A program made the translations under genes and the position numbers. A stretch of 64,000 nt of DNA, from positions 827,001 to 891,000 of the forward strand of contig NZ_CP150269.1 of the NCBI RefSeq assembly GCF_037976825.1, written 5' to 3'. Of the stretch, positions 18,118 to 50,510 are shown piece by piece; the first letter of the stretch is position 1, and every line of letters starts with the position of its first letter. Source of the stretch: Paenibacillus sp. FSL K6-1330. GTDB lineage: Bacteria > Bacillota > Bacilli > Paenibacillales > Paenibacillaceae. Below the pieces are notes generated by a model. The model saw only the letters and a list, made by a program, of their open reading frames with translations, did no database searches and had not been told where the DNA came from.

Positions 18118-21100
18118 TTACCGTGAAGGACCGATCGCAATCCAGGACATGAAACCATAGGCGAGATTGCAGTTAGGCTGGCGGCTCACTTCAAGGACGG
18201 CGGTATCCTCGCGCTGGGATTTCAGAGAGATTTGGAAGCCAGGATTGTTGCTCATCCCCACAATGATATAGTTGATCCCACCAAAGGCTTCCTCGAATTG
18301 GACGGTTACCTCGGTTAACGTCTCAGCTCCAAATACAAATGGCGTCATGCCGAATTGCTGCAGCTTCGGCTGGCCAGGTGTGCTGCGCACTGGCGTAAAG
18401 CATAAATGTTCTTCCGTTACTGCGCCTTTAGCCAATTGTTGTCCGGTAACGGCTCCTTCGGCCAGATGGGTGCTTGTGACGGCGCCGTTTGCAAGCTTAT
18501 CGCTATCAATGGAGCCTTCGGCTAAGGTGAAGTCGTTGAAGGCATCCGGACCGAGATGCTTGCTGCTGATAGTTCCATTGGCAATTTGCGCGCCTGTGAG
18601 TGAGGCGTCGGCAACGTGAGCGCCGGTGATGGAGGCATCCGCAATCTTGCTGCCGTCAATGGAGCCATCAGCTAACGAGAAGTTATCGAAGGCATCTGGT
18701 CCGAGGTGCTTGCTGCCGATAGTTCCGTCGGCAATTTGCGCGCCAGTCAGGGAGCCGTTAGCAACGTGCGATCCTGTGATGGAGGCCTTAGCAATCTTGC
18801 TGCCGCCAATGGAACCTTTGGCTAACGAGAAGTCGTTGAAGACATCCGGTCCGAGGTGCTTGCTGCTAATAGTTCCGTCAGCAATCTGCGCACCAGTCAG
18901 GGAGCCGTCAGCAACATGCTTGCCGGTGATGGAGGCATCCGCAATCTTGCTGCCGTCAATGGAGCCATCAGCTAAAGAGAAGTTATCGAAGGCATCTGGT
19001 CCGAGGTGCTTGCTGCCGATAGTTCCGTCGGCAATTTGCGCGCCCGTGAGCGAACCATCTACAACGTGCGATCCAGTGATGGAATCCTCCGCAATCTTGC
19101 TGCCGTTAATGGAGCCATCGGCTAACGAGAAGTTATCGAAGGCATCCGGACCGAGGTGCTTGCTGCCGATAGTTCCGTCGGCAATTTGTGCGCCTGTCAG
19201 GGAGCCATCAGCAATGTGCGCGCTAGTGATGGAATCCTCCGCAATCTTGCTGCCGTTAATGGAGCCATCAGCTAACGAGAAGTTATCGAAGGCATCTGGT
19301 CCGAGGTGCTTGCTGCTAATAGTTCCGTCGGCAATTTGCGCGCCCGTGAGCGAACCATCTACAACGTGCGATCCAGTGATGGAATCCTCCGCAATCTTGC
19401 TGCCGTTAATGGAGCCATCAGCTAACGAGAAGTTATCGAAGGCATCCGGTCCGAGGTGCTTGCTGCTAATAGTTCCATCTGCAATCTGTGCACCAGTCAG
19501 GGCGCCGTCAGCAACGTGCGATCCTGTGATGGAGGCCTTAGCAATCTTGCTGCCGCCAATGGAACCTTCGGCTAACGAGAAGTCGTTGAAGACATCCGGT
19601 CCGAGGTGCTTGCTGCTAATAGTTCCGTCGGCAATTTGTGCGCCAGTCAGGGAGCCATCAGCAATTTGCGCGCCCGTGAGCGAACCATCTACAACGTGCG
19701 ATCCAGTGATGGAATCCTCCGCAATCTTGCTGCCGTCAATGGAGCCATCGGCTAACGAGAAGTTATCGAAGGCATCTGGACCGAGATGTTTGCTGCCGAT
19801 AGCTCCGTCAGCAATCTGCGCACCAGTCAGTGAGCCGTCAGCAACATGCTTGCCGGTGATGGAATCCTCCGCAATCTTGTTGCCTGTCACCGATCCATCA
19901 GTTAACGAAAAGCTATTGAAGGCATCCGGTCCGAGGTGCTTGCTGCTAATAGTTCCGTCAGCAATCTGCGCACCAGTCAGTGAGCCGTTAGCAACGTGCG
20001 ATCCTGTGATGGAGGCCTTAGCAATCTTGCTGCCTGTCACCGATCCATCAGTTAACGAAAAGCTATTGAAGGCATCTGGTCCCAGGTGCTTGCTGCCGAT
20101 AGTTCCGTCGGCAATCTGCGTGCCTGTGAGCGAACTATCTACAACGTGAGCGCCAGTAATGGAGGCATTAGCAATCTTGCTGCCGTCAATGGAGCCTTCG
20201 GCTAATGTGAAGTCGTTGAAGGCATCCGGACCGAGATGCTGGCTGCCGATCGCCCCGTTGGCAATTTGCGCACCAGTCAGGGAACCTTCAGCAACATGCG
20301 TGCCAGTGATGGAAGCCTTAGCAATCTTGCTGCCGTCAATGGATCCATCGGCTAACGAGAAGTTATCGAAGGCATCCGGTCCTAGGTGTTGTCTGCCGAT
20401 GGCTCCGTCAGCAATTTGCGCACCAGTCAGTGAGCCTTCGGCAATCTGCACGCCTGTGAGCGAACCATCCGCAACGTGTTCGGCGGTGATGGAAGCCTTA
20501 GCAATGTTGCTGCCGGTCACCGATCCCTCATCTAGAGTGAAGTTATCGAAGGCATCCGGTCCTAGGTGTTGTCTGCCGATGGCTCCGTCAGCAATTTGCG
20601 CACCAGTCAGTGAGCCTTCGGCAATCTGCACGCCTGTGAGCGAACCATCCGCAACGTGTTCGGCGGTGATGGAAGCCTTAGCAATGTTGCTACCGGTCAC
20701 CGATCCCTCGTCTAGGGTAAAGTTATCGAAGGCATCTGGTCCTAGGTGCTGTCTGCCGATGGCTCCGTCAGCAATTTGCGCACCAGTCAGTGAGCCTTCG
20801 GCAATCTGCACGCCCATGAGCGAACCATCCGCAACGTGTTCGGCGGTGATGGAAGCCTCCGCAATCTTGCTCCCGTCAATGGATCCATCGGCTAACGAGA
20901 AGTTATCGAAGGCATCCGGTCCTAGGTGTTGTCTGCCGATGGCTCCGTCAGCAATTTGCGCACCAGTCAGTGAGCCTTCGGCAATCTGCACGCCTGTGAG
21001 CGAACCATCCGCAACGTGTTCGGCGGTGATGGAAGCCTTAGCAATGTTGCTGCCGGTCACCGATCCCTCATCTAGAGTGAAGTTATCGAAGGCATCCGGT

Positions 21101-24100
21101 CCTAGGTGTTGTCTGCCGATGGCTCCGTCAGCAATTTGCGCACCAGTCAGTGAGCCTTCGGCAATCTGCACGCCTGTGAGCGAACCATCCGCAACGTGTT
21201 CGGCGGTGATGGAAGCCTTAGCAATGTTGCTGCCGGTCACCGATCCCTCATCTAGAGTGAAGTTATCGAAGGCATCCAGTCCTAGGTGTTGTCTGCCGAT
21301 GGCTCCGTCAGCAATTTGCGCACCAGTCAGTGAGCCTTCGGCAATCTGCACGCCTGTGAGCGAACCATCCGCAACGTGTTCGGCGGTGATGGAAGCCTTA
21401 GCAATGTTGCTGCCGGTCACCGATCCCTCATCTAGAGTGAAGTTATCGAAGGCATCCGGTCCTAGGTGCTGTCTGCCGATGGCTCCGTCAGCAATTTGCG
21501 CACCAGTCAGTGAGCCTTCGGCAATCTGCACGCCTGTGAGCGAACCATCCGCAACGTGTTCGGCGGTGATGGAAGCCTCCGCAATCATGCTGCTGGTCAC
21601 CGATCCTTCATCTAGGGTAAAGTTATCGAAGGCATCCGGTCCGAGATGCCGGCTGCCGATGGTCCCATCGGCAATTTGAGCTCCTGTGAGAGAGCCGTTC
21701 GCAACGTGTTCGGCGGTGATGGAAGCCTTAGCAATCTTGCTGCCGTCAATGGATCCATCGGCTAACGAGAAGTTGTTGAAGGCATCTGGTCCGAGATGCC
21801 GGCTGCCGATGGCTCCGTCAGCAATTTGCGCACCAGTCAGTGAGCCTTCGGCAATCTGCACGCCTGTGAGCGAACCATCCGCAACGTGTTCGGCGGTGAT
21901 GGAAGCCCCCGCAATCATGCTGCCAGTAACCGATCCTTCGTCTAGGGTGAAGTTATCGAAGGCATCCGGTCCGAGATGCCGGCTGCCGATGGTCCCATCG
22001 GCAATTTGAGCTCCTGTGAGAGAGCCGTTCGCAACGTGAGTACCGGATATCGTCTCCTTCGCAATCTTACTTCCCGTAATTCCACGGTCCTGCACATGTT
22101 CCGTTGTGATTGCACTGGCTTCGATATGCTGCGAACCGATGCTAGAAATTTGCAGGTGATGGGGAAGAACGGCGCCCTCCGCCAACTGCCTCGATTTAAC
22201 GGCCCCCGGCTGTAAATGATCGACGCCAACACTGTCCGGCTGCAGGTGGACATGACCGACAGACTGATTTCCTAGATGTGCTGCGTTGACCGAGTACGGC
22301 GCCAAATGATGGCTCTGAATCGAGAACAATTCAACATGCTTGGAGCTCACAGCACCTTCGGCGATATGTCCGCTCTGGATCGATTCTCCGGCGACATGCT
22401 CAGGAAGGACGGCGCCGTTTGTAATATGTGCGGATTCTATGCTCTCGGCTTGAATGTGCCGGGCAGTGACAGAGCCGGAAGCAAGATGGCGGCCGGTCAC
22501 AGATCCTTCATCCATATGCTGTGATTTGACAATATCCACGCCCAGGTGGTCAGACTGGACGCTCGCTTCTTGCAGATGCACTGCTGAAATGGAGAGAGGC
22601 TTGATCTTATCGCCGCTCACGGCATTCGCTTGCAATGCGGTTCCCGAGACCGACGAAGGCGAGAGATGGGCTTCTGAAATGGATTGTGATCTGATTTTTA
22701 CGCCCGGGATGCTGCCGTCTGCAAACAACGCTTCTGCAGAGCGGCTTTCGTCAGCCAGATGGCTTAACGTGATGGATTTTTTCTTCAAGTGATAGCCATG
22801 AATGGCTTCCTGCACGATATGTTTGCCCAGGATGGATTCCAGTCCCAGATGCGCGCCCTCTACAGCTTGCGGAGCAATTTTCTCCGAAGTAACGGCCTTA
22901 TTCTGAATCGCTTCTGAAGTTACCGAATACGGCGAGAAGTGAGTGGATTGAACCGCTTTTGGAGCTATTTTGCCAGCGGAGACACTGCTCTCAGCTAGTT
23001 TATTTGAAGTTACAGCCAGGTCTGTCAATTTATCCGTGGACACGCTTTCCGGAGACAGCTTCAGCGAGGTTACCGCATGGTCCCCCAAATGTCGTGGTGC
23101 AATGACCCCATCGCCGATTGAGGACTCCACAATGCTGCCTGCAGCAATTTTATCTGTTGTTACCGCTCCCTGGGCGAGCGCTTGTGACCGTACGCTTCCC
23201 TTCTGCAGATGGCGGCTGGCCACAGAGCCATCGGTCAGATGCGGCTCGCGAACCGCACCATTTTGCAGGGCTTCAGCACCTACACTGCCTGCTGACAAGT
23301 GCTGCTGTTGAATGGCTTCGCTGGCAATATTTCCGGAGGTTACGCCATGTTTAGCAATAATGGCTCCGCCAACCGATCCAAGCGCAAGCTTTTGGCTGGT
23401 CACGCTTTCGGGTGCCAGCATCTCTTCGCCGACGGATGCAGGCTGAAGATGCTGCTTCCCGATCGCTCCGTCTGCCAGATGTTGTTCTGCGATCGTTTTG
23501 GGCTGAATGGCACGCCCTATGACGCTCTGAGGCGCGAAATGCTGAGGTAAGATGCTGCCCTCTGCAATATGCTCTGCATTTACAGTATCCGCAGCGAGAT
23601 GCCGGGTTTGAATGGCATCCGATGCAATCTGATCCGATTCTACCGCACCCTTAGCCAAATGGCGTGTTTGAACGGCTTCATTGGCAATTTTGTTAGGGAG
23701 TATGCTCTGATCCGCGATTTTCGAAGCCGTAACCGCTTGTTCAACCAGCTTTACCGTGTGGACGGATTGATCGGCAAGCTTGGAACTGGTGACACTGGAA
23801 TCAGACAGATGGCGGGCGGATACAGCGTTGATGTTGATCTGATCGGAACCGATGGAGCCGGGCTGGATTTGCTCTGATCCTATGGCTCTGTCCGCTAAAT
23901 GTCGGGAGCTGAGCGAGCCTTCTTTAATATGCCCGGCGTTGATGGCACCGTCTGCAATTAGGCCTGGCCCGATGCTGCCGGCAGCAATGTGCTTCGCAGT
24001 TACGGCCTCGCTGGTCAAATGTTTGCTTTCGATGCTTTGCGGTTTTATGTGAGAACCTGAGATGGTGTCATCGGCGATTTTTTTGCCTGTTACGGCTTCG

Positions 24101-24990
24101 TCACGGATTTTGGTTGAAGTGACTGCATCCTCTGCAATCTTGGAGCTATGGACGCTCTCATTAGCGAGATGTCGGGTTTCTACGGCGCTGGATGCGATTT
24201 TGTCCCCTTGAACCGATTGGTCTTCGAGCAGGTCGCTTGTCACGAGGAGCTGTTGCAGATGACGTGCAGTAATAGCCCCATCTGCGATTTTGTCGCTGAC
24301 CACGGCGTGGTCTGCCAGTTTTTGTGAAGTTACACTACCATCCTTGATCTTGCTAGCATTTACGGAACCGTCCCGAAACTTGCGCGTAGATAAGATGCCA
24401 TCCATCAAATGTTCTCCTGTGACTGATAATGGTGCGATTTTTCCGGAAGTTACAGATTCATCGGCAAGGTGCAGACTAGTGATGCTGTAATCCTGTATAG
24501 CTTCAGGTCCGACGGCACCACGTGACAGCTTGGATGCTGTGACAGCTCTCGAAGCGATCCGGCTTTCGGTTACCGCATATTCCCCTATGTCCTCTGTATA
24601 TATGAATGCGCCCTTAATTTCAGGCATTTCCTTTTCCAAAATCAACTGCACATGCTCGTTCTCCATCTCTGGAAGGGATGGGGGATCGTTAGGCATGGTC
24701 GGGGGTTCAGCGGCTACAGCATCTTCTGTAGGTATGATAGCCTCTTCGTCAGAAGTCGATAGTGGGGTGTTTTCTTTATTTTCTTTGTTTTCTTCTTGTT
24801 TTAATTCCATGAGGCCGATAAGATCCTCATCCAGATCCATAATGGTTGCTGCTGAGAGGATATGGGCATCTTTATCTTTTTTGTGGCTGCGTCCTTTATT
24901 TCGCTCAAGCAGATCGAATTCCCTTGTAGTGGGATCTACCCTGTAGGGCTGGGAAGAGGAAGATGATGGGCTTTTCTTCTTTTTCTTCAA
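18118..24990 (-). CDS. Giant decapeptide-repeat fibre protein with WIAIGP C-terminal domain
   Basis: About 2290 aa. N-terminus: Lys/Ser-rich start, then an acidic low-complexity region (to about residue 136) with no signal peptide. Next come about 206 ten-residue repeats (pattern x-G-S-V/I-T-x-x-K/H-I/L-A) in strict register, broken once by a single inserted residue (DESRSAEALFA). Hydrophobic residues recur every five positions, as expected for a beta-solenoid or fibrous trimer. The last 94 residues form a beta-rich domain ending in SWIAIGPSR, which tentatively resembles H-type lectin domains. TTG 24990 is chosen because GGAAGGAG lies 9 bases before it; ATG 25032 has no ribosome site and lies inside a SigmaK-like -10. 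Likely a spore-surface fibre; a phage-tail-like origin of the repeat is possible. Confidence 0.82.
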   Translation of the reverse strand: MKKKKKSPSSSSSQPYRVDPTTREFDLLERNKGRSHKKDKDAHILSAATIMDLDEDLIGLMELKQEENKENKENTPLSTSDEEAIIPTEDAVAAEPPTMPNDPPSLPEMENEHVQLILEKEMPEIKGAFIYTEDIGEYAVTESRIASRAVTASKLSRGAVGPEAIQDYSITSLHLADESVTSGKIAPLSVTGEHLMDGILSTRKFRDGSVNASKIKDGSVTSQKLADHAVVSDKIADGAITARHLQQLLVTSDLLEDQSVQGDKIASSAVETRHLANESVHSSKIAEDAVTSTKIRDEAVTGKKIADDTISGSHIKPQSIESKHLTSEAVTAKHIAAGSIGPGLIADGAINAGHIKEGSLSSRHLADRAIGSEQIQPGSIGSDQININAVSARHLSDSSVTSSKLADQSVHTVKLVEQAVTASKIADQSILPNKIANEAVQTRHLAKGAVESDQIASDAIQTRHLAADTVNAEHIAEGSILPQHFAPQSVIGRAIQPKTIAEQHLADGAIGKQHLQPASVGEEMLAPESVTSQKLALGSVGGAIIAKHGVTSGNIASEAIQQQHLSAGSVGAEALQNGAVREPHLTDGSVASRHLQKGSVRSQALAQGAVTTDKIAAGSIVESSIGDGVIAPRHLGDHAVTSLKLSPESVSTDKLTDLAVTSNKLAESSVSAGKIAPKAVQSTHFSPYSVTSEAIQNKAVTSEKIAPQAVEGAHLGLESILGKHIVQEAIHGYHLKKKSITLSHLADESRSAEALFADGSIPGVKIRSQSISEAHLSPSSVSGTALQANAVSGDKIKPLSISAVHLQEASVQSDHLGVDIVKSQHMDEGSVTGRHLASGSVTARHIQAESIESAHITNGAVLPEHVAGESIQSGHIAEGAVSSKHVELFSIQSHHLAPYSVNAAHLGNQSVGHVHLQPDSVGVDHLQPGAVKSRQLAEGAVLPHHLQISSIGSQHIEASAITTEHVQDRGITGSKIAKETISGTHVANGSLTGAQIADGTIGSRHLGPDAFDNFTLDEGSVTGSMIAGASITAEHVADGSLTGVQIAEGSLTGAQIADGAIGSRHLGPDAFNNFSLADGSIDGSKIAKASITAEHVANGSLTGAQIADGTIGSRHLGPDAFDNFTLDEGSVTSSMIAEASITAEHVADGSLTGVQIAEGSLTGAQIADGAIGRQHLGPDAFDNFTLDEGSVTGSNIAKASITAEHVADGSLTGVQIAEGSLTGAQIADGAIGRQHLGLDAFDNFTLDEGSVTGSNIAKASITAEHVADGSLTGVQIAEGSLTGAQIADGAIGRQHLGPDAFDNFTLDEGSVTGSNIAKASITAEHVADGSLTGVQIAEGSLTGAQIADGAIGRQHLGPDAFDNFSLADGSIDGSKIAEASITAEHVADGSLMGVQIAEGSLTGAQIADGAIGRQHLGPDAFDNFTLDEGSVTGSNIAKASITAEHVADGSLTGVQIAEGSLTGAQIADGAIGRQHLGPDAFDNFTLDEGSVTGSNIAKASITAEHVADGSLTGVQIAEGSLTGAQIADGAIGRQHLGPDAFDNFSLADGSIDGSKIAKASITGTHVAEGSLTGAQIANGAIGSQHLGPDAFNDFTLAEGSIDGSKIANASITGAHVVDSSLTGTQIADGTIGSKHLGPDAFNSFSLTDGSVTGSKIAKASITGSHVANGSLTGAQIADGTISSKHLGPDAFNSFSLTDGSVTGNKIAEDSITGKHVADGSLTGAQIADGAIGSKHLGPDAFDNFSLADGSIDGSKIAEDSITGSHVVDGSLTGAQIADGSLTGAQIADGTISSKHLGPDVFNDFSLAEGSIGGSKIAKASITGSHVADGALTGAQIADGTISSKHLGPDAFDNFSLADGSINGSKIAEDSITGSHVVDGSLTGAQIADGTISSKHLGPDAFDNFSLADGSINGSKIAEDSITSAHIADGSLTGAQIADGTIGSKHLGPDAFDNFSLADGSINGSKIAEDSITGSHVVDGSLTGAQIADGTIGSKHLGPDAFDNFSLADGSIDGSKIADASITGKHVADGSLTGAQIADGTISSKHLGPDVFNDFSLAKGSIGGSKIAKASITGSHVANGSLTGAQIADGTIGSKHLGPDAFDNFSLADGSIDGSKIADASITGAHVADASLTGAQIANGTISSKHLGPDAFNDFTLAEGSIDSDKLANGAVTSTHLAEGAVTGQQLAKGAVTEEHLCFTPVRSTPGQPKLQQFGMTPFVFGAETLTEVTVQFEEAFGGINYIIVGMSNNPGFQISLKSQREDTAVLEVSRQPNCNLAYGFMSWIAIGPSR
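18510..22050 (-). repeat. Tandem array of 22 units of 150 or 180 bp inside the giant gene
   Basis: The segment coding for GPDAF (variants GLDAF, GPDVF) recurs 22 times. Copies start at plus-strand positions such as 18541, 18691, 18841, 19591, 19771, 20551, 20731, 21091, 21781 and 21961. Units are five decapeptides (150 bp), or six (180 bp) when an extra GVQIAEGSLT decad is present. Neighbouring units are nearly identical over long stretches, so recent expansion by unequal exchange is likely and length may vary between strains. Confidence 0.95.
22051..24582 (-). repeat. Diverged decapeptide (30-bp) repeat region
   Basis: The N-terminal half of the repeat domain keeps the ten-residue register, but the copies have diverged strongly at DNA level. 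It is the older part of the array; the 3' half is the recently amplified part. Confidence 0.9.
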
Positions 24991-25026
24991 AACAACACGC
25001 TCCTTCCGAATACTCATCGTCTTCGG

Positions 25027-25054
25027 TATCATATGCAGCCGTTTAGGCGGCTGT
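25027..25054 (-). promoter_or_regulatory. SigmaK-like promoter of the giant repeat gene
   Basis: On the minus strand, CATATGATA (25035-25027) matches the SigmaK -10 consensus CATAnnnTA. The -35 dinucleotide AC (25054-25053) lies 17 bases upstream. Transcription would start near 25020, downstream of ATG 25032 and upstream of the ribosome site at 25007-25000, in agreement with the TTG start. The CAGCCG/CGGCTG dyad (25036-25053) fills the spacer. Confidence 0.55.
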
Positions 25055-25100
25055 CACTGGTCTTTTGGGATTCGACACACGAAAGGGCAGCGTAACATGG

Positions 25101-25127: not shown

Positions 25128-25411
25128 TTGATTGAGCGCTAAAAAGCACATATAAAATTTAACCCCTGACGGCCGATAACGGCTGTACAGTCGGTTCCGT
25201 ATTTGAAGTATTTTCAAGAATCTTTGCTTCTAAAACGACAAAAGCCCTGCCTCTCTTTCGTCCTTGCGGCTCCGATGACCGCGCCAGTGTGAATCAGAAA
25301 TCCGTTCCATAAAACTCATACTCTAGGGTCATAAAATAGGAATTTGCACTTCAACAGAGATGTAAATAACCATGTTTCGAGGAACTAACGGGGTTAAACT
25401 TCATGTAACAA
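25101..25411 (-). ncRNA. Candidate unidentified minus-strand transcript, about 310 nt
   Basis: A good promoter, TTGCTT-N17-TATAAT (25446-25418, minus strand), and a strong terminator (25127-25101) bracket this gap. The only ORF of note is 29 codons (25319-25230) without a clear ribosome site. No known riboswitch or RNA family was recognised. It could be a small RNA or a short peptide message; either is a guess. Confidence 0.35.
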
Positions 25412-50230: not shown

Positions 50231-50365
50231 CCTTTAATTGACCGGCAGTTTATTATTTCCGTAAATTTTCACTTTATTTTTTCATAGGGAATGCGTTATA
50301 CTTCATTCATTCGGAAATATACCATTTACACGTAAGCATTCTAAGGAATTTGGATATTATACATT

Positions 50366-50435
50366 TTCTCGTATAGGTGCAGGAATTGGCCTGCATGTCT
50401 CTACCCGATCACCGGAAATGATTGGACTACGGGTT
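50366..50435 (+). ncRNA. Purine riboswitch aptamer, guanine class
   Basis: P1 is CTCGTA/TACGGG (50368-50373 and 50428-50433). P2 is TGCAGG/CCTGCA with a TTGG loop, followed by the conserved TGTCTCTACC junction. P3 is CCGATCA/TGATTGG with loop CCGGAAA. The 3' junction GACTAC carries C at the ligand-pairing position, which selects guanine, hypoxanthine or xanthine rather than adenine. It controls the xpt-pbuX operon. Confidence 0.93.
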
Positions 50436-50510
50436 ATAGCAGCAGCAGCGGACAAGCCAGGTCAATTCCATTTGACCTCAGGTGGCTCACGGTGCGTTTT
50501 TGTTGCTTAT

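Follow-up and report, generated by a model that had tools for sequence, protein, structure and literature searches.

A giant decapeptide-repeat protein of Paenibacillus as a candidate trimeric bristle of the spore surface

What would a spore-forming bacterium do with a single protein of more than two thousand residues that consists mainly of ten-residue repeats? The question is raised by a gene in a stretch of 64,000 nucleotides from Paenibacillus sp. FSL K6-1330 (contig NZ_CP150269.1, positions 827,001 to 891,000), here called the window. The gene lies on the minus strand at 18118..24990 and encodes a protein of 2,290 residues (233 kDa) ending in a WIAG-tail domain; we refer to this protein and its long relatives as giants. 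We think it likely that the giant is made in the mother cell during sporulation and assembles as a trimer into a long spore-surface bristle. Its location, trimerisation, glycosylation and role in adhesion are all inferred from the observations below.

The open reading frame on the minus strand spans 18118-25032, and from its first ATG at 25032 to the stop at 18118 it would encode 2,304 amino acids. However, a ribosome-binding site, AAGGAG (25000..25005, minus strand), precedes a TTG codon at 24990 by 9 bases, and the relatives start at the same place in the alignment; the gene is therefore taken as 18118-24990. For comparison, 37 giant loci were fetched, of which 34 were analysed together with the window (n=35), while L063, L066 and L068 were left out of the counts, as the tail pattern missed them or picked another frame. 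The 35 giants share one plan, which starts with a basic peptide at the N-terminus in which one Glu is constant and continues with an acidic linker, an array of ten-residue repeats (decads) and the tail. In the window, the N-terminal peptide (24901..24990, minus strand) carries the motif YRVDPTTREFDLL, which in the alignment of 29 giants has the consensus YxVDNPNxxELxxL, and the linker (24583..24900, minus strand) has a net charge of -13 over residues 31-120. The basic N-terminus with its Glu motif is also present in L063, L066 and L068.

A sequence-only reading of the window had described about 206 phased decapeptides with a single one-residue insertion. A dynamic-programming parse with a decad profile agrees, giving 206 decads over residues 137-2197 (18400..24582, minus strand) and exactly one one-residue insertion, which forms an 11-residue unit at 22720..22752 (minus strand); shuffled versions of the protein (n=5) gave one decad per shuffle in the same parse. 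The commonest residues of the decad are D-G-S/A-I/V-T-G/S-x-H/K-L/I-A. The proposed recurrence of hydrophobic residues every five positions is complete, as all 205 regular decads have I/V/L/F at position 4 and L/I/V/F/M at position 9. At position 7, at least 94 of these 205 carry F, E, Q, K or R, and the 205 together contain 53 F/W/Y and 1 Cys. The second half of the array is, by its sequence, a recent expansion: approximately residues 940-2140 (18571..22173, minus strand, approximate limits) consist of higher-order blocks of first 60 and then 50 residues with a self-identity of 0.72-0.95. Sub-threshold pentapeptide, PipB, Qnr and DotG-type matches, as well as a Pfam WI12 match inside the repeats, are read as matches of repeat composition. 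Two long antisense frames of 507 and 506 amino acids lie opposite the array (window 18626-21679, plus strand); they are read as by-products of repeat codon use and not as genes.

The register of the decads is kept far beyond this genome. When the arrays of the 35 giants are parsed with the decad profile built from the window protein, they contain 51-236 decads (median 152), and the register is unbroken in 27 of the 35. One or two single-residue insertions occur in the window and in three near relatives (L055, L056 and L057), and longer insertions are found in one relative (9 residues) and in three giants of one other family (6-7 residues). Slices of 205 residues starting at the landmark YTEDI, i.e., the last six residues of the linker and the first 20 decads (23986..24600 in the window, minus strand), align without a gap across 33 giants including the window; L035 and L059 do not have the landmark and are outside this alignment. 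In five close pairs of relatives, dS of the slice is 0.16-0.61 versus a dN of 0.002-0.022, which indicates strong purifying selection on the frame; pairs that include the window itself are saturated at synonymous sites.

The sequence-only reading also considered a cellular gene of this size unusual, which is not supported for its own lineage. The WIAG-tail is present in 53 of the 60 genomes searched (own included), and 42 of these have it in an open frame of at least 700 amino acids, by our own count never two per genome. The other 11 have the tail in shorter frames only, and at least three of these frames lie close to the start of a contig. In one other family, four genomes (G044, G051, G055 and G058) have a WIAG frame of 203-213 amino acids only. 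In a sample of 299 genomes from the phylum, the tail was found in four, all from the window's family and including its own genome, and one further genome of this family in the sample has no tail. A scan of named genomes with the tail of one relative gave 25 loci, 24 in records titled Paenibacillus and one in a record titled Bacillus sp.

The last 80 residues of the giant match the NCBIfam family WIAG-tail (NF012201) with 86.8 bits, versus a curated cut-off of 33, over residues 2224-2301 of the 2,304-residue frame (18130..18363, minus strand). The structure model of the tail has a pLDDT of 93-98, and its best structural matches are H-type lectins and the heads of pyocin and phage fibres. In the model, the tail forms the six-stranded lectin beta-sandwich that characterises the H-type lectins, and it is predicted to fold as an H-type-lectin-like beta-sandwich, as in phage and pyocin fibre heads and snail lectins. 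H-type lectins and pyocin and phage fibre heads are trimers, and we propose that the tail is a trimeric head. At E <= 10, a set of 36 tails gave matches to eight Pfam families in all, and the H-type lectin family is not one of them; as this sequence match is absent, we do not file the tail as a member. With regard to a C1q/TNF-like C-terminal trimer, the window's own tail has no Pfam match, and its best structural matches are the lectins and fibre heads just named. A homology search of the tail inside two giant frames retained 0 of 20 and 0 of 46 candidates at E <= 0.001, though whole genomes give dozens, and this is taken as a limit of the search.

The sequence-only reading left a choice between one continuous beta-solenoid and a trimeric fibre. 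The trimer is favoured here, because the predicted C-terminal fold is that of trimeric heads and lectins and because position 7 is often not a small residue, and the relation of the shaft to phage tail fibres is supported. The structure prediction proposed for the repeats did not yield a confident shaft: the AlphaFold2 monomer of the first 20 decads has a mean pLDDT of 60.1 and contains no long strands. A single-chain solenoid of the pentapeptide-repeat type is one of the two most serious rivals, although we consider it improbable. It would account for the hydrophobic residues at every fifth position, and it draws on sub-threshold matches of the decads to HetL and to pentapeptide solenoids in the PDB, both natural and designed ones (best E 1.7e-6; 1.5e-6 by profile). 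However, all scores to pentapeptide families are below the curated cut-offs (HetL 103.2 bits versus 260, PipB2 69.2 versus 354). In a solenoid of this type the i-2 position points inward and must be small, while the corresponding position 7 of the decads often is not. Further, AlphaFold2 normally builds a solenoid for pentapeptide repeats, and it builds none from the decads.

The other serious rival, to which we give marginally less credence than to the solenoid, has the giant as a protein of the spore coat with no fixed fold, be it disordered, elastic or scaffolding. It would be in line with the low confidence of the monomer model and with the scarcity of aromatic residues and cysteines in the decads. 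Against it stand the unbroken register of most arrays and the gap-free slices described above, the hydrophobic positions that the window's decads never lose, and the folded head predicted at the end of the chain.

The timing of expression is suggested by the region upstream of the gene. Footprinting of 15 aligned upstream regions (of the 35) reveals one strong block, GTGnC(A), 15 bases and (G)CATAnnAT, in which GTGnC and CATAnnAT are invariant in all 15. In the window, this promoter-like element reads GTGACA-N15-GCATATGAT (25028..25057, minus strand) and ends 37 bases before the start, and the pattern has a single exact match in the 7.4-Mb genome. Within 80 bases of the start, the strict pattern is found in 25 of 35 giants versus 0 of 386 neighbouring open reading frames of at least 150 amino acids. 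It is present in 14 of the 15 giants used for its definition and in 11 of the 20 others; the -10 part alone is found in 33 of 35 giants versus 26 of 386 neighbours. A -10 of the CATA type, with a -35 at a fixed spacing and the whole lying some 40 bases ahead of the start, is the pattern expected for the mother-cell sigma factors E and K. Promoters of sigma K have a five-base -35, a ten-base -10 and a gap of 14-16 bases, as given in Eichenberger and others (PMC517825). The -10 and the spacing of the element fit, at the level of sequence, mother-cell sigma factors, and we infer that the gene is probably transcribed by the sigma E or K RNA polymerase of the mother cell.

A second link to the spore comes from the neighbours of the relatives. 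In the 35 loci, with names taken from scanned representatives of neighbour clusters, the recurrent neighbours are phosphatidylserine decarboxylase (23), YheC/D-like ATP-grasp proteins (22), GT2 glycosyltransferases (21) and RmlA-like nucleotidyltransferases (19). Four loci of other families have a GT4 glycosyltransferase immediately upstream of the giant, and two of the loci listed continue with RmlB/RmlD-type genes. The spsIJKL genes make dTDP-rhamnose, according to PMC7439481. The hint at spores in the sequence-only reading is thus supported by both the gene neighbourhood of the relatives and the promoter element. The window's own genome has such a sugar cluster at C1:1815297-1847049, 1 Mb from the giant.

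Besides the low-confidence monomer model of the decads, several points weigh against the spore bristle. No protein or transcript data were found. The promoter motif is partly defined on the giants themselves, the control reading frames begin at mechanical first starts, and, since the giants are related to each other, the counts are not independent trials. Textbook patterns of the sigma K type (2 of 35 giants, 0.145 expected), sigma E type (3 of 35, 1.2) and sigma G type (2 of 35, 1.9) gave a weak scan, which was therefore replaced by the footprinting. A looser form of the site precedes 3 of the 29 genes in the own sugar cluster, and in the window it precedes 2 of 49 genes, one of which is the giant. 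The method that chose the starts of the giants weighed the ribosome site and basic residues and shifted the start in 10 of 35, and because basic residues were rewarded the basic N-terminus is partly built in for these 10. Seven of the 60 genomes are without a WIAG-tail, three of them fragmented assemblies, and as SpoIVA is found in all 60, own included, presence and absence cannot test the link to sporulation. Finally, the window's giant is outside the sugar cluster and has as neighbours the genes of an ABC transporter, an MFS protein and an HD-domain protein as well as the BsrC RNA.

The gene context of the window is shared by its three near relatives. The own sugar cluster contains YheC/D, GT4 and a short WIAG-tail paralogue of 193 amino acids with few decads (L071:9671-10252, i.e., C1:1817909-1818490), in the same order as around the giants of other families. 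These are followed by about 15 kb of other genes, then by orthologues of three GT2, RmlA and GT-D, and later by RmlC and an RmlB-like gene. The simplest history would be that the giant moved away in this clade and the short copy stayed. The BsrC small RNA (Rfam, 71.7 bits; window 25225-25312, plus strand) lies between the giant and the HD-domain gene, on the strand opposite to the giant. The window, L053, L055, L056 and L057 have this RNA no more than 1.5 kb from the giant, and a search of six other loci did not find it; being restricted to these five among the loci searched, it is a marker of the context seen in the window. Among the proteins of the own spore-sugar cluster (L071, L078; C1:1818800-1841944), several have, by eye, repeats of the GFxxGxxxGFxxGxxxGY type, mostly near the N-terminus, possibly a shared coat-targeting or assembly tag.

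The relationship to phage tail fibres, noticed from the short repeats by the sequence-only reading, is borne out. The decads match tail-fibre families in PHROG (best phrog_892, E 1.2e-253, with scores inflated by the repeats), and tblastn finds them in 86 of 50,697 phage records; the 20 of these 86 that were listed have identities of 32-40%. The fibre of cyanophage P-SCSP1u is a trimer with an unresolved distal part according to PMC10575957, and its structure (8i4m) is a weak match to the decad profile. A literature search for the name WIAG-tail gave one paper, PMC12085832, which lists a tail fibre protein of a haptophyte (algal) virus as containing a WIAG-tail domain. Descent of the shaft and head kit from phage fibres is plausible. 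The decads of the giant align to the repeat fibres of cyanophages and of Gordonia and Geobacillus phages; however, searches with two different tails as query did not detect the WIAG-tail in the 50,697 phage records, nor did a search of viral contigs that detects close relatives only. The R-type pyocin fibres and gp53 of Acinetobacter phage AP22 differ from the giant, which is encoded by a cellular gene next to which no phage genes were found and which has a shaft of 206 decads and a sporulation-type promoter element.

That this copy is itself a phage or tailocin tail fibre left from a prophage is unlikely, and less probable than either of the two rivals above. The strong matches of the decads to phage fibres, the predicted fold of the tail and the viral WIAG-tail protein all speak for such a remnant. 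However, the tail itself was not found in the phage searches above. Nine neighbours in the window were scanned and eight received Pfam names, none of them a phage gene, and there is no phage gene among the named recurrent neighbours of the giants. The spread of the tail across 53 of 60 genomes, its confinement to the window's family in the phylum sample and the linkage to spore-sugar genes also argue against a remnant. Equally unlikely is a vegetative cell-surface or S-layer adhesin. Adhesins are typically very long and repetitive, with a lectin-like end; against this reading, none of the 35 giants has a signal-peptide-like stretch, the Pfam scan of the giant gives WI12 inside the repeats only and no anchor domain, and the promoter element is of the sporulation type.

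For the trimeric spore bristle, we suggest the following mechanism. Mother-cell RNA polymerase with sigma E or K would transcribe the gene, and a secretion signal would not be needed, because the forespore lies within the mother cell. The N-terminal basic peptide, the proposed anchor, would dock on the outer spore layer. When the peptide of one relative was searched in six genomes, it matched only giants, in four of the six, which gives no sign of a leader common to other spore proteins. The tail would nucleate the trimer and set the register of three chains, which then zip into the shaft. In such a zipped register, insertions and deletions that are not a multiple of ten would be selected against, while whole decads or blocks of 50 or 60 residues could come and go, so that their copy number would set the length of the bristle. 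The shaft of 2,061 residues might be about 100-180 nm long if its rise resembles that of known trimeric beta-fibres, with 0.48 nm per decad giving about 100 nm and the geometry of the adenovirus shaft about 180 nm. Ser and Thr of the shaft could be decorated by the glycosyltransferases of the cluster, and the head may offer a face that binds carbohydrates or surfaces and thereby serves adhesion or clumping.

A broader proposal, on which we are evenly divided, is that in Paenibacillus and its order a kit of phage-fibre parts, a decad shaft with a lectin-like trimeric head, has been domesticated, so that each genome encodes a single giant spore bristle, which a dedicated dTDP-rhamnose cluster glycosylates. 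This would be a second, collagen-free hairy nap whose length evolves rapidly by the copy number of whole decads. If true, a very large conserved protein of a big group of spore-formers would gain a place and a mechanism, and it would be the main candidate component for the outer surface of Paenibacillus-type spores. Parts of phage tail fibres would then serve as a cellular spore bristle, and the ten-residue units with their selected register would be a natural modular ruler for long fibres, with possible use in spore display and biomaterials.

Among known systems, the window's tail is a member of NF012201 by its score above the cut-off, and the relatives studied are the same kind of protein, but the family is named for the C-terminal domain only. 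The H-type lectins (Helix pomatia agglutinin, discoidin and SLL-2) share the predicted fold of the tail and differ in that they have no Pfam sequence match to it. BclA and F-BclA, collagen-like proteins of the exosporium and the tip fibrillum in the Bacillus cereus group, resemble the giant, from what PMC11952670 reports of them, in a long shaft of variable repeats, a C-terminal globular domain and neighbouring glycosyltransferases. In the F-BclA tip fibrillum, the collagen shaft has about 700 residues and a length of about 200 nm (PMC11952670). However, BclA and F-BclA have a collagen shaft and a C1q/TNF-like head, while the giant has decads and a predicted H-type-lectin-like head, and the Pfam scan found no collagen Gly-X-Y match in it. 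By this analogy, the giant is best read as a collagen-free functional analogue of BclA. Literature searches on decapeptide repeats, Paenibacillus spore filaments and exosporium, spore rhamnose, the giant protein and spore appendages gave, judged by the titles and abstract starts of the top matches, no description of the giant.

The F-ENA appendages (DUF4183) are also fibres of the spore surface, and according to PMC11952670 they have been seen on spores of a Paenibacillus isolate. They are pili of small subunits, in contrast to one huge chain, and the Pfam scan found no DUF4183 in the giant. The domain is also encoded in the window's own genome. About 26 kb from the giant (G000:C1:818347-819351), a frame of 294 amino acids for a collagen-like and DUF4183 protein lies beside a DUF4183 frame of 119 amino acids, which is the F-Anchor/F-ENA architecture known from spore appendages, and a third DUF4183 frame is found at 4617295. 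Elsewhere in the window, a purine riboswitch is located at 50349-50449 (plus strand, 70.6 bits).
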